Of a DNA stretch of 64,000 nt, positions 17,003 through 50,189 are shown one piece after another. Origin of the DNA: Ctena decussata (Eukaryota > Mollusca > Bivalvia > Lucinida > Lucinidae). Where the stretch lies: positions 34,650,993 through 34,714,992 of the forward strand of contig OZ022499.1 in assembly GCA_963989385.1 (NCBI GenBank), written 5' to 3'. Position 1 is the first letter of the stretch. The number at the start of each line of letters is the position of its first letter. The notes beneath the pieces were generated by a model that was given only the letters and a program-made list of their open reading frames with translations, searched no databases and was not told where the DNA came from. Made by a program: the position numbers and the translations under genes.

Positions 17003-17078
17003 ATGAAGCTAACTGCAGCTATACTGATGATGAATGTTTTATTAAAACATGGGGATAACTTCGTTCCTTCATGTTCAT
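17003..17078 (+). CDS. Gene A exon 1 (signal peptide)
   Basis: The ATG at 17003 opens MKLTAAILMMNVLLKHGDNF, a signal-peptide-like segment. The exon ends in phase 1 at a GTGAGT donor. The nearest upstream ATG (16992) stops after four codons. The exon aligns with gene B exon 1 up to the shared Tyr completed at the junction. Confidence 0.72.
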
Positions 17079-20000
17079 GTGAGTATACAAATTAGGTCAT
17101 AGACGTGTACCCGAAAAAATATATATGAGCGAAGTGTTATTGCGTCTTTCAAACTAAGTAAATAAAATATGTTGAGTTTTTTTTAGCAGAAATGGTTTTA
17201 AAATTAAGAAATTTCAGTCAGTCTGCTTTTCTTTGGTTTTGTCACAAGATATTGTAAGGGTCACGGATAAGGCTTAATAGGCCGAAACTACGTAGTCGGG
17301 CTTATGTTCCTTCTTATGAGTGTATTCTTTGCTCTTGAAGGAACTCTTTAAGATTTTAATTTTACTTCAGTGCAGCTGGTGTTGTGCCGTGTGGCGGCCG
17401 TAGTTAGTACGTCTCCCTGTACATTATCCATAGTGCAGATTTTATTCATTTTCGTCCTTTGGGAGCAGAGGATATATTCAGAGAGATCGGAAAATTTAGA
17501 TTGGTTTAGACTCTTATTCTAGATCATCGTCTTTTATATTATTTGGGTCCTATTTTGATACTAGCCAGTTTTTGAATCGACTGCCCAATTAAAATTAATA
17601 AATTTTAGTCTGCTTTTCTCTGGTTTCGTCACCAGATATTGCCCGGGTCACCGATGAGGCTTTATTAGCCGAAACTACGTAGTCTGGCTCATGTTCCTTC
17701 TTCTGAGTGTATTCTCTGCTCTTGAAGGAACTCTTTAAGATTTTAATCTTACCTCACTGCAGCTGGTGTTGTGCTGTGTGGCGGCCGTAGAACGTCTCCT
17801 CGTACATCATCCATAGTGCAGATTTTATTCATTTTGGTCTATTGGGAGCAGAGGATATATTCAGAGAGATCTGAAATTTTGAATTGGTTTAGACTCTTAT
17901 TCTAGATCATCGTCTTTTATATTATTTGGGCCTTTTTTTGATACTAATCAGTCTTTGAAGCGAGTGCCCAATTAAAATTAAAAAAAATAAGTCTGCTTTT
18001 CTCTGGTTTCCTCACCGGATATTGCCCGGGTCACCGATGTGGCTTTATTAGCCGAAACTACGTAGTCTGGCTCATGTTCCTTCTTCTGAGTGTATTCTCT
18101 TCTCTTGAAGGAACTCTTTGAGATTTTAATTAAAAGAGCTCTGAATTCGTAAAGTTGTACTGATATCAATCAGACGAATGGACGCAGGTTCTAATACCTA
18201 TATTTGTTCTCTCTTAGAACGTAGAATTGACTATTATTTGTCCTCGCATAAGACAGAGACTACTCGGCGAGACAATGACGTAGGCAATGTCTACATTTGC
18301 CATCTCTTAGGACATAAGCGAGGCATAAATAAGAACTACCGTAGGAACGTACGCTAGATGCTTATTAAGTAAGTAAGTATTAGACCTCTCCTAGGACGTA
18401 AGCTAGTTCTATAAAGTCTTTCTTAGGTTATAGATTATGTCTTTTTTCTCCTTTACAATGACGCAGGACTAAGTCTTTGTCCTCTCCATTACAATCACAG
18501 GAGAGTACAAATACATATGTCTAAATAAAACCTATGTAAGTTAAAAGGTAAAGGTTCTCCATAGCCTAATAGCCGTGGGGGTTAGAGACCCACTGTATCT
18601 TGGGCACGGCTGATGAAAGGCGGCGCCCACCATCTCTCTCCTTTCGCTGCCTTATCCTTCCCTGATTCGAAATAGGTACCCATTTACTGCTGGGATGACA
18701 GAGTTTTCCAGTCGTCGGATGGCGAATTATGAAATTTCTATTAAACCTAAATCAATTTCTACCAATCATTTTTTCAGATATTATTCTCAATCTTCCGCAC
18801 AATCTTACAATCGACGTTACTGTTGGGTTTGAGCAACCAATATATAGCATGATAGTTGAAGACCTGGCGGGGAATTCTGCGCCAAATATTACTGACTTCA
18901 GATATCCCTCAGATTATTTTATGATTCAGAACAGTATGTATTTTCCTTGTCCTTAGAATTATCGGTCACAAAGCACATGTCAATATATCTTTGTAGGAAG
19001 ATTATATTCTTCTGTCAGCCCAGTCAACCTTAACGTTTCAAAAATAAATGGCAAATGAACCTTGTTCGACAATACCTCCGACAGTCTGATTGGTTTACAC
19101 TGATTTCGGAAAACCTGTTTGTATTCACCTTCAAGAGACAAGTTCACTTACACCATTAAATAAAACATTAAACGTGTCATTTAAAATTAATTTATAGCGG
19201 AAGACGCCACTGGGCAGTGTTACATCTAAATCAGCTGGAACGAATTCAAAATTATCGCTGACATTTCGAGTTTCTTGAGCTTTGCATTATGACGTGTTCA
19301 TGTGCACGACAGTCGAACGTATCTTTAAGACTGCGTTGCATCAGACTATAAAATCGAATCGTTTTGCACTGGGAGTTGCCGTCATAGTAAAAATCATCAC
19401 ACCTGCGTGTTATTAGCGCGGTAGTCTAGAAACTAAATACACTGGAAAACATTCAAATGACAAAACATTATCTGGCAGAAAAATTACCATACGCGAGTTT
19501 TGACGACTTAGAAAAGCTTAATCATTGTCTTTAGTATTAAGGAGATAGAGGATTTTTTTTTCTTTCAGTGTATGATCAAAATAAATTTCATTATTGAAAA
19601 CCAGATGCTAGTTTCATTCAAGGGTATGAGTTTGGTTTTCCTTCGGAAAAAAACAAACTTATAATGTTTTATTTTGTAGATGAAGTTACAGTGAAGTCCT
19701 GCCTCCCTGTTCCTGATAATTTCAGCGGTATATTTGACCTTGAAATACTGATAGTCGGAGAAGAAACCATTTGCCCCTCTGCATATCTGACTGTTATAGT
19801 AAAATTCGCAGTAAGTTTCACATAATCATATCGTTAAAAAAGCGGCCATCTTCAACACGTCTGATACCACGAAACTAGTCAACGTAACATACGTGCTTGT
19901 ATTGCCCCTCTTTTTGGTTTCATTGGTCTTATAGAGTACTTCAGTTTCCTAAGCAAAGAGCTGGACAAAGTTGAATTATGCATGGGTTGGAAGTACTAAA

Positions 20001-28852: not shown

Positions 28853-28934
28853 ATGACGATGATGCTTTGCTTTACGATTTTGATATTAAATTTGTTTTTT
28901 AAAGCTGGAGAAGGAAGCGCATCCCATTGCATGT
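28853..28934 (+). CDS. Gene B exon 1 (signal peptide)
   Basis: The ATG at 28853 opens MTMMLCFTILILNLFFKAGE. The exon ends in phase 1 at a GTAAGT donor, and the split codon makes Tyr as in gene A. An ATG five bases upstream stops immediately (ATG AAA TGA). Confidence 0.75.
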
Positions 28935-31900
28935 GTAAGTAAAAATAAATATTTTTTATGTTCAAATTTGACCGCACCAAGTTTACAAAATTGTCGCAAG
29001 GCACGTGGATACAGGCACTCATGAGTTCAAATCAGATAGAGCATCTGCGCCTTTTGACCACTACATTTTTTCAAAAATACAATGTATAGACTGTTAATGT
29101 GAATGGAGAATAATGCGCTCCACGCAGATGCATATCAATACTGCAGCCTAATAGCGTGTTAGAAAATAACCCTCTGTGACATCATGATATATCGGGATAG
29201 ACCCACACCACGGTATCTTTAATGTAAACATATTTGTACTATACCCCCAAAAAATATTAGGGGGTCAAACTGTGCCAGATTTAAAGGGTCACTGATGAGG
29301 CTTGAATAGCCGAAACCGCGGTATGGCCCAACTTCTTACTTATGAATGTTTTCTTTGCTCTTAAAGGATCTAAACTTTTATCATTATTTACTGTCACTGC
29401 AGCTGGATGTTGTGCCGTGTGGCGGCCGTAAAAAGTCTCCCCGCACTCATCTATAGTGCAGATTATATTTTCCTTTTGGTCCTTTGAGATCATGGAATAT
29501 ATTCTGAGAAGTCAGAAATGATCATACGTTTAGATTCATTTTCTAAACAAATTTGAAATATTTTGGTATTTTTCGACTTATATCAGTCTTTGAGACGACT
29601 GCCATGTTAAACCTGCAAATTTACTGTTTTTTTCCTCTGGCTCCTTGTGCCAGATTTAAAGGGTCACTGATGAGGCTTGAATAGCCGAAACCGCGGTATG
29701 GCCCAACTTCTTACTTATGAATGTTTTCTTTGCTCTTAAAGGATCTAAACTTTTATCATTTTTTACCCTGCGATTTCTAGAACAGTTCAAACATTTGGTA
29801 AAATAAATCATTTCTACCTTCCAGTTTATTCATTTTGCAAGTTTTGTACACATGAAGTTTGAAACTATAACCTTTGTCTTGACCAAGTCCAGGCTATAAG
29901 TCACGCTACCCCGAAAATGAGAGCTGTTTGGATTCCCATAGAGAAAGGATAGTGTGTCAGTTTGATCGGGTATAACTTCTTAAATTGCTCTAAATTTTAA
30001 ACTTGTTACAGCTTGCTGACCTTAGAAATGATTAAAATAGCTGACTATCGAGCAATTTTGCAAAAAATCATGAATTGGCGAAATCGAAAATTCTAGTGAA
30101 TTTGCTCCTTATGGACTTCTGACCACTTTGATTTTGAGGGTGGTGTGGATCGAAGTCTGGACTTGGTCAAAATAAGGGCCATGGTTTCAAACTTCATGTG
30201 TACAAAGCTTGCAAAACGAATGAAATTGAAGGTAGAAACGATTTATTTTGCCAAATGTTTGAAATGTTTCAGAGATCGCAGGGTAAAAATTTGACCCCTT
30301 AATACTTTTTCGAGTATATTTCCGATTTAGATCATTACAGTATATCTTTGGGTGAATGGGAACACTTCCAGTGTAATAATAATGAATAATAATGATTTTA
30401 TTACAAGAAGGTAACACAATTAATATAAAACTAATCTTCCTTAAATATTTACACATATGAACAAATAAACCAGAACTAGCCATTAAACACAAGATTCTCC
30501 GAATATGGATAGAATTTAGGTCGTTTCTAACAGTATTTCAGTCAAATAAGGACAACGAAAGGTTTGTGCAATGGAACTTCGTTTACAGTTGAAAAATCTT
30601 CCCCTTCCAGCAGGTATCGAACCTGGGAACGCTAGATAAGCTGACGGGCGCTTAACCTACTGAGCTACCGGAGTTTGCCCTTATATGGAAAGTACTTTCT
30701 AAGATATGGTATGTGGGAACCACCAGAGATGAGCAAATCCCAGAAACCCATCCCCAGCCGCAGAGCTAAATGGAAACAACTAAACACTAATTCTTAATGA
30801 GTGCTAATCTTGAACTACAGGTATGTTTCTCTAACAGCCGTCTATTTCGAGGGATTTGTCATCTAGGAGAACAATCAGGAAGTTCATTTTGTAGAAATGG
30901 CGGAAAAAACATGAACGCGTATCTATATCAGAACGTCATAACCGTAAAACTTGTCCATGTATGTAACTGTAAACTGATATATATTTTCAGACTTATACAC
31001 CAATCTTCCACACAGTCTCTCGCTCGATGCTAATACAGAGGTTGGACAACCGATTTACAACGTTACAATTGGTCATACAGTGGGCGGATCTGCGCCGAAA
31101 ACCGTGGATTTGAGAAATCCGTCAGATTACTTTGCGATTGAAAACAGTAAGCTCATTAAACTGAAGCATAGTAAAAAAAAACTGCGCACGTACATTTTAC
31201 AAGTAGTTGCATATAAATTATAATATTGTAATAAACGGACAAAGGGAGGCCCGTAAGAAAAACAAGATAACTTGGCATGGCAAGGCTGAAATACCTGAAT
31301 ATTTACACATATGAACAAAGTGGTTAGAGTGGCTCGGCTATTGTTCAGAAAGTCCCCGGGAGGTCGTGTGTTCGCGGCTCACCGTCGCCACCCGACGACG
31401 GGAAAACTCTGTCTGTCAACCCAGAGTAAATGGGTACCTTTTTCGAATTAGGGAAGGATAAGGCAGCGAAAGGAGAGAGATGGGCTCCGCCTTTCATCAG
31501 CTGTGCCCAAGATACAATGGGTGTCTAACGCCCACTGCCCCTACGGCTATTAGGCTATGGGAAACCTTTACCTTACAAAACGTATAAAAGTCCCGCTATC
31601 CCTCACTCCACCCAGCGCGCTGATAGTTAGCATTAGGGATTGTAGGCATTCTGGAATTTTTTCCAAGGAAATATACAACCGCGGTAGTTCACAGAACCAG
31701 AAAATATATTAAGTAAAAATCACTTTATCAAGCCTTAGGTATTTTAATTTAATGATAAACAAATAACTTCAATAAGTAAAGGGCCTTATTATAATAAGCT
31801 GATCAACGCCGGGCCGTGTGGCGCAGTCGGTAGGGTACCTGACTTATAAGTCAGAGGTCCTGGGCTCGATACCCGGTCTGGCCACATATTTTCGTTTCTC

Positions 31901-49344: not shown

Positions 49345-49929
49345 CAGTCGCAAAACTGAAGAGAGTACTCTCCAATTCCTAGTCAGTCGCAAAACAGAAG
49401 AGAGTACTCTTCAATTCCTAGTCAGTCGCAAAACAGAGGAGAGTACTCTCCAATTCCTAGTGAGTCGCAAAACAGAGGAGAGTACTGTTCAATTCCTAGT
49501 CAGTCGCAAAACAGAGGAGAGTACTCTCCAATTCCTAGTCAGTCGCAAAACAGAGGAGAGTACTCTCCAATTCCTAGTCAGTCGCAAAACAGAAGAGAGT
49601 ACTCTTCAATTCCTAGTCAGTCGCAAAACAGAGGAGAGTACTCTCCAATTCCTAGTCAGTCGCAAAACAGAGGAGAGTACTGTTCAATCCCTAGTCAGTC
49701 GCAAAACAGAGGAGAGTACTCTCCAATTCCTAGTCAGTCGCAAAACAGAGGAGAGTACTCTCCAATTCCTAGTCAGTCGCAAAACAGAAGAGAGTACTCT
49801 TCAATTCCTAGTCAGTCGCAAAACAGAGGAGAGTACTCTCCAATTCCTAGTCAGTCGCAAAACAGAGGAGAGTACTCTCCAATTCCTAGTCAGTCGCAAA
49901 ACAGAAGAGAGTACTCTTCAATTCCTAGT
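49345..49929. repeat. 39-bp minisatellite, 15 units, with 195-bp higher-order pattern
   Basis: 585 bp of CAGTCGCAAAACAGAGGAGA + GTACTCTCCAATTCCTAGT units with no spacers. Three variants (TCTCC, TCTTC, TGTTC) follow a five-unit order that repeats. Unit length is a multiple of three, so two plus-strand frames stay open (13-residue repeat SRKTEESTLQFLV in one); this is expected from the period and is not evidence of a protein. Most units hold the palindrome GGAGAGTACTCTCC. Confidence 0.95.
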
Positions 49930-50189
49930 CTGCATAATATAATATACATTGTATTATAGCAGACGTGTTGTACGTTTCGTCTTTTATCATCAAACTGCTG
50001 TAACGACTATTCTAGTCCTGTTTGTCCTAAAACCTTGCAAGTTCGTTGGGTACCACAAATGACACATAAACGAACGATCTTTTCCCACCTAGTCCTGTTC
50101 GCAGCTTTTTAATACCGGCCATGTCCACCCGTTAATATTTCTTTCATCTGTACTTCTGTTTGACCCTTCTTCATTTTCCTTTTATTGTA

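Follow-up and report, generated by a model that had tools for sequence, protein, structure and literature searches.

Animal non-LTR retrozymes have been described, a mussel being one example, and their RNAs are cut, circularise and accumulate (PMC7229834). Mytilus galloprovincialis has two related families of them, with type I hammerheads, short tandem repeats of 350–390 bp and less than 45–50% GC, and thousands of ribozyme copies (Cervera & de la Pena, 2020, PMC7229834). Use of the circle as template for a tandem cDNA was proposed in PMC7229834 and PMC7761336; the latter, a 2020 review, describes the retrozyme repeats as lacking a conserved motif that would point to a partner. Plant LTR retrozymes (PMC4918200) share the ribozyme-made circular RNA intermediate but carry type III hammerheads, LTRs, a PBS, a PPT and 4-bp target duplications (PMC7229834). 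In the satellite-type hammerheads of newt and axolotl, in units of 330/350 bp, stem III is very short, its loop is palindromic and the ribozyme acts as a dimer (PMC7229834). Penelope-like elements that carry a minimal type I hammerhead start reverse transcription at a fixed site within the RNA, past the hammerhead cut, and leave tandem partial copies (PMC11167929). Hammerheads have also been described from introns of amniotes (PMC6155905).

We analysed a 64,000-nt stretch of genomic DNA (hereafter, the window) and found in it an insertion of family F1 and an older retrozyme of a second family, F2, whose features are collected in Table 1. The F1 element has an intact type I core, two ribozymes in short tandem repeats (150–450 bp in retrozymes) and dispersed copies, and judged by its sequence it is an animal non-LTR retrozyme of the kind published in 2020 (PMC7229834). 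Its resemblance to the Mytilus galloprovincialis elements extends to the hammerhead type, the GC content (37.9% in the F1 repeat), the presence of two related families with thousands of ribozyme copies in one genome, and the unit length (375 nt in F1, 383–387 nt in F2), the lengths being compared by description and not by sequence. On the same descriptive basis F1 is set apart by unit size from the newt and axolotl hammerheads, with which it shares the short stem III and palindromic loop, and it differs from Penelope-like elements in carrying no protein and in having, probably, a circle as its template. The original prediction had offered the family itself as new. F1 is a further family, but retrozymes of such build had already been published in mussel (PMC7229834). 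The kind of element is already known, and what is added here is the evidence from insertion ends and units: the available part of PMC7229834 does not say of mussel retrozymes that the 3′ end is fixed, that the 5′ ends are uniform or that units come from the same template, and the portions searched of the animal retrozyme articles report no fixed insertion end.

Table 1. Features of the two retrozyme copies and of the host gene B in the window.
Feature	Position	Strand	Remarks
Older retrozyme, family F2, units of 387 and 383 nt	17198..18130	+	Changed ribozyme cores; ends at circle ~63
Probable exon 1, gene B	28853..28934	+	Phase 1, signal-peptide-like by eye; ORF and splice signals only
Probable intron 1, gene B	28935..30990	+	GT at 28935, AG at 30989–30990; retrozyme inside, sense
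Retrozyme insertion, family F1 (locus L048)	29271..29763	+	53 nt, one 375-nt unit and ~65 nt
Hammerhead ribozyme 1, type I	29286..29329	+	Cut expected after 29323
Predicted 375-nt monomer (circle positions 1–375)	29324..29698	+	Release and closure inferred
Inferred reverse-transcription start zone (circle 61–70)	29384..29393	+	Second copy, 29759–29768, is the element's 3′ end
Best-conserved F1/F2 stretch (circle 72–143)	29395..29466	+	Adjoins inferred start; candidate reverse transcriptase binding site
Hammerhead ribozyme 2, type I	29661..29704	+	Cut expected after 29698
Probable exon 2, gene B	30991..31146	+	In frame with exon 1; GTAAGC at 31147

The prediction of a retrozyme with two hammerheads spaced 375 nt, in sense orientation within the probable intron 1, was borne out, the introns being defined by open reading frames and splice signals. 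Its ends form a 121-nt repeat (29271–29391 and 29646–29766, spacing 375, 99% identity) whose sole mismatch, 29386/29761 at repeat position 116, leaves the initial 115 nt identical; the identical ends announced before therefore exist, at 115 nt and not 114 bp. The 3′ end of the copy is fuzzy and falls within 29759–29768, and its monomer departs at one base (circle 70, window 29393) from the sequence that most of the copies read have. Each ribozyme reads GGGTCA-CTGATGA-GGCT(TGAAT)AGCC-GAAA-CCGCGG-TA^TGGCCC, with a GUA triplet. Every core element and all three stems had been said to be kept, and the core is indeed complete and three stems are present (stem I of 6 bp, stem II of 4 bp), but stem III has only 2 bp, with a CGCG loop. 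A structure-aware scan for the core and three stems, on both strands of the window, returned these two F1 sites and no other, and gave 0 sites in 100 random windows drawn from a first-order Markov model of the window. The 2-bp stem III has a self-complementary sequence and so permits a dimer form: two F1 ribozyme copies could pair with each other through the 8 bases ACCGCGGU, in a predicted 8-bp helix at −14.1 kcal/mol. For the isolated ribozyme, the native fold was computed at −9.9 kcal/mol against a minimum of −15.9 kcal/mol, in a calculation that leaves out core tertiary contacts; the 375-nt monomer folds at −96.1 kcal/mol (z −3.6), a value equalled by 0 of 100 shuffles. The sole listed ORF (stop to stop, at least 60 aa) overlapping the unit has 76 aa and lies on the minus strand, and no frame in the unit is large enough for the reverse transcriptase and GIY-YIG endonuclease of a Penelope-like element.

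The covariance check proposed with the original prediction was run on the window only. Nothing in the window scored above the Rfam gathering score, and a relaxed search returned RF00008 at only 13.9 bits (E 8.4; cut-off 48.5). In view of the 1,300 ribozyme matches in the genome, we judge this miss to be a limit of the models, which seem too strict for such a short stem III, and take the hammerhead motif to be real.

These matches were obtained with a 38-nt ribozyme pattern at up to 3 mismatches and divide into 649 and 651, while the reversed-pattern control gave 0. The genome assembly comprises 1.66 Gb in 245 contigs, 18 of which (C1–C18, 129.5–48.4 Mb) are chromosome-scale, unlike Mytilus with its 14 chromosomes. 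Among the small contigs (C19, 15,302 bp; C20, 224,039 bp; C21, 68,583 bp), C19 matches an animal mitochondrial genome in size. A search with the 375-nt unit gave 1,277 first-look candidates, 40 of which were scored, yielding 158 matches; the 39 loci found besides the window copy are spread over 9 of the 18 chromosome-scale contigs. No match was found to the exact ribozyme 32-mer in viral contigs, nor to the 375-nt unit in phages. Mean divergence from the F1 consensus is 0.37% (68 loci, 231 pieces), and by this sequence measure F1 is a young, recently active family and the insertion in the window is itself young.

The host gene has a tandem copy upstream, paralogue A. Exon 2 of gene B resembles it (18789–18935; 49% over 49 aa, E 4e-13) up to 31147, where the likeness stops; if unspliced, the exon 2 frame would end at 31223. 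The F2 copy follows the probable first exon of paralogue A (17003–17078), and the two retrozymes, of different families, both lie in sense orientation in the probable first introns of the neighbouring paralogues. A Pfam search of nine ORFs from the host genes and their surroundings gave 0 matches and names neither paralogue. Intron placement is ordinary. It had been put forward as a novelty, of which the sense orientation in a probable intron stands, and the site is one among the 1,300 ribozyme matches genome-wide. Intron 1 of gene B also contains, immediately 3′ of the insertion, an inverted repeat with 126-nt arms (29811–29936 and 30113–30238; 77%), perhaps a non-autonomous DNA transposon, and elsewhere in the window (49345–49930) there is a tandem array of 15 copies of a 39-bp unit (13 codons; 95% matches).

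To see where F1 insertions begin and end, we read 71 copies: the window copy, the 39 loci of the unit search and 31 of 51 further loci from the ribozyme listing, which covered about 100 of the 1,300 matches, on C1 and C2. All were chosen by a near-consensus match or an exact ribozyme. Flanking sequences revealed duplicates (L009/L010, L023/L043 and L056/L057, the last pair 99.7% over 300 nt), and L010, L023 and L057 were dropped afterwards; L023 is a duplicate of the L043 insertion in which an interruption of about 860 bp separates circle 288 from circle 289. The 3′ end lies at circle 61–75, counted in nucleotides past the ribozyme cut, in 69 of the 71 copies, with a mode of 65, and in 66 of 68 after removal of the three duplicates; among the ribozyme-picked copies alone it lies at circle 64–75 in 29 of 31. 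The exceptions, L052 (circle 44) and L058 (circle 375), were also excluded wherever ends mattered, leaving 66 copies. In these, each of the two bases beyond circle 65 matches the circle in 61% of copies, and the start may therefore lie anywhere from about 65 to 67. The 5′ ends, by contrast with this fixed point, are uniform over the 375-nt circle (KS p = 0.85), and only 1 of the 66 starts within 3 nt of a ribozyme cut. The boundaries of the element therefore differ from the ribozyme cuts, its 3′ end lying 61–75 nt downstream of the cut, and the fixed 3′ end has the geometry of Penelope-like integration, a fixed internal start downstream of the hammerhead.

Insertions range from 104 to 4,032 nt in length, and 19 of the 28 ribozyme-picked copies with regular ends are longer than one unit; some of the copies read hold a single ribozyme, and the window copy holds two. 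Target duplications, which in animal non-LTR retrozymes exceed 4 bp where they occur, are rare and give no clear general signal: those of at least 12 nt with one mismatch were found at 2 of the 66 insertions (14 and 18 nt; control 0), and exact flank matches of at least 7 nt at 6 of the 66, as against 3.3% in the control. Two loci, L013 and L032, have near-equal flanks on both sides and differ in 5′ start (circle 88 and 152) and in unit number (1 and 3); they represent either separate insertions into the same site of a repeat or a single locus that was duplicated and altered in its number of units.

We then asked whether the units of one element descend from a shared template. Mean divergence within and between elements hardly differs (0.78% and 0.85%) and is uninformative as a test, as the copies are nearly identical, and we used shared substitutions instead; a first sample of 40 copies had almost no shared variants to test. 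Among 150 variant cells with at least two covering units, 132 have the variant in a single unit, 5 in part of the units and 13 throughout. When only substitutions are counted, every covering unit shares the change in 12 of 92 cells, distributed over 8 elements, and 2 cells are partial; random reassignment (500 trials) gave on average 0.17 and at most 2 fully shared cells. Put differently, of 14 cells with a substitution in more than one unit, 12 have it in every covering unit; the partial cases are L037 (2 of 3 units) and L042 (2 of 5 units). Length variants of the T tract are also partly shared, in L012, L017 and L037. Two of the shared substitutions, those at circle 51 and circle 289, also turn up in other elements and hence mark subfamilies, and the one at circle 303 lies inside a T tract. 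One template circle per insertion fits the shared substitutions, and so could a linear transcript of a pre-made array.

A cut linear monomer copied from about circle 65 would yield at most about 65 nt of product, and such pieces would inflate the count of a pattern from circle 4–48. This 45-nt pattern gave 1,421 matches and the 38-nt ribozyme pattern 1,300, with no large excess of short run-off pieces from cut linear monomers by this rough test, in which the patterns differ in length.

The second family points to the same start. The window copy of F2 would be cut after 17297, 17684 and 18067, although all three ribozymes have core changes; genome-wide, F2 gave 3,742 candidates (40 scored) and 7,331 ribozyme matches at up to 3 mismatches (reversed control 0), and the core is standard in 44 of the best 48 matches, a biased view, as they were ranked against a standard-core pattern. 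The 3′ end of the F2 window copy coincides with that of F1, immediately ahead of the stretch in which the two families are most alike: starting at F1 circle 72, 65 of 75 alignment columns are identical, compared with 45–53 of 75 in the other full blocks. This stretch is a candidate binding site for a reverse transcriptase, by analogy with the anole Penelope enzyme, whose minimum RNA extends past its start site (PMC11167929). Its predicted hairpin (−23.1 kcal/mol, z −1.7) was equalled by 12 of 200 shuffles. Across three sequences, 4 of the 21 predicted pairs have a one-sided change that keeps the pair, none is changed on both sides, and 3 are broken or gapped in one sequence.

We consider it quite probable that the window carries a young non-LTR retrozyme insertion made by reverse transcription of a circle from a fixed start, with the host gene a bystander. 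The hammerheads would cut a read-through RNA, read-through transcription being the proposed source of retrozyme RNA, and a host RNA ligase would close the 375-nt monomer to a circle, as PMC7229834 leads us to expect. A reverse transcriptase from another element would bind the circle, probably at circle 72–143, and, with cut target DNA as the likely primer, begin copying at the fixed point near circle 65 to which the insertion ends point. It would round the circle one or more times and drop off anywhere, as the uniform 5′ ends and same-template units indicate, and would leave a tandem insertion whose 3′ end is fixed. The fixed 3′ ends, the uniform 5′ ends, the same-template units, the lack of a large excess of short run-off pieces, the low divergence and the matching end of F2 speak for the rolling-circle reading. 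Weighing against it are the rarity of target duplications, the partly shared variants, the subfamily status of two shared substitutions, the two misfit ends of L052 and L058, the way the copies were chosen and the native ribozyme fold, less stable than the computed minimum. With somewhat less assurance, we lean towards seeing the insertions as the footprint of copying round a ribozyme-made circle from one start, beside a module of about 70 nt recognised by a Penelope-like or other enzyme.

The template could instead have been linear: a multimeric transcript of an array already present, left uncut and primed at that internal site, with circles as a by-product. Such transcripts would give similar 3′ ends, and a fixed 3′ end with a free 5′ end is expected likewise; the few elements with mixed units speak for them too, and an array made earlier from a circle could pass on the same all-unit pattern. 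Against them, the substitutions shared among units extend to all covering units nearly throughout, and we regard a linear template as rather unlikely. Tandem repeats are also what satellite DNA would leave if it spread by unequal crossing-over and recombination with the ribozymes as passengers, and the newt ribozyme satellites were first described so (PMC7229834), but the insertions are dispersed, the 39 loci of the unit search lying on half of the chromosome-scale contigs, they have a single fixed 3′ end and uniform 5′ ends, and the predominance of single-unit variants means that units were not homogenised after insertion; this origin is very improbable. We give as little credence to the idea that gene B has taken over its intronic copy and that cutting regulates splicing. 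The sense orientation in intron 1 would suit it, as would the F2 copy behind exon 1 of paralogue A, and intronic hammerheads of amniotes have been proposed to act in mRNA biogenesis (PMC6155905). However, a copy one base away from the majority is too young to show selection, the paralogue A ribozymes have changed cores and belong to the other family, and many dispersed copies probably make a chance hit likely.

As to the enzyme behind circle copying, we searched the genome for GIY-YIG domains and obtained 926 candidates; 150 were scored, all 150 over the cut-off, many of them in frames of 766–774 codons at a spacing of 3,681 bp. The loci L092–L096 (on C2, C1, C4 and C11) represent this Penelope-like family with its 3,681-bp tandem period, and its many copies of equal domain score suggest recent activity. 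The internal stretch L092 contains an upstream frame and a minimal hammerhead recognised by eye, with the cut after nt 115, and the start of another frame, which by its motif we take for that of a reverse transcriptase; Pfam found no reverse transcriptase or other match over the cut-off in two L092 frames. We call the family Penelope-like on account of its GIY-YIG domain, its arrays, both tandem and inverted, the hammerhead seen by eye and this motif. Four array ends (L093–L096) lie about 55 nt (one) or about 99–101 nt (three) past an L092-type cut, and each is followed by TA repeats, short in the case of L093. A second GIY-YIG family (C4 and C5, spacing about 3,895 bp) was read at an internal stretch (L097) and an end (L098); that end, too, leads into TA repeats, and the 280 nt read contained no hammerhead core. 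Between the retrozyme and L092 there are only weak sequence matches, the best being 25 nt at 84% (E 0.07). Neither the 3,681-bp nor the ~3,895-bp family was retained as an obvious partner, given their ends in TA repeats and no convincing common sequence; the start geometry of the retrozyme is Penelope-like, and a partnership with the two families read is unsupported.

A LINE might mobilise the retrozyme in place of a Penelope-like element, an alternative that concerns the partner only and is compatible with circle copying from a fixed start. In its favour, all five ends read from the two Penelope-like families run into TA repeats, whereas F1 shows no TA-repeat target: at least 4 TA units within 30 nt of the 3′ end were found in 1 of 66 flanks, away from the junction. 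Initiation inside the RNA, like the scarcity of target duplications, nevertheless suits Penelope-like elements better (PMC11167929), and one of the families has a minimal hammerhead, seen by eye, with ends at the distances past its cut given above. We hold a LINE partner to be possible, though doubtful.

Retrozymes are thought to spread by copying of RNA circles, and F1 gives the start site to within a few bases. With a family as young as F1, the start site and the enzyme become testable, and a candidate recognition element adjoins the start. If the reading of circle copying from one start is true, the circle-copying step that the published model assumes would be readable from dozens of young copies, and the module of about 70 nt would be a handle on the partner enzyme.
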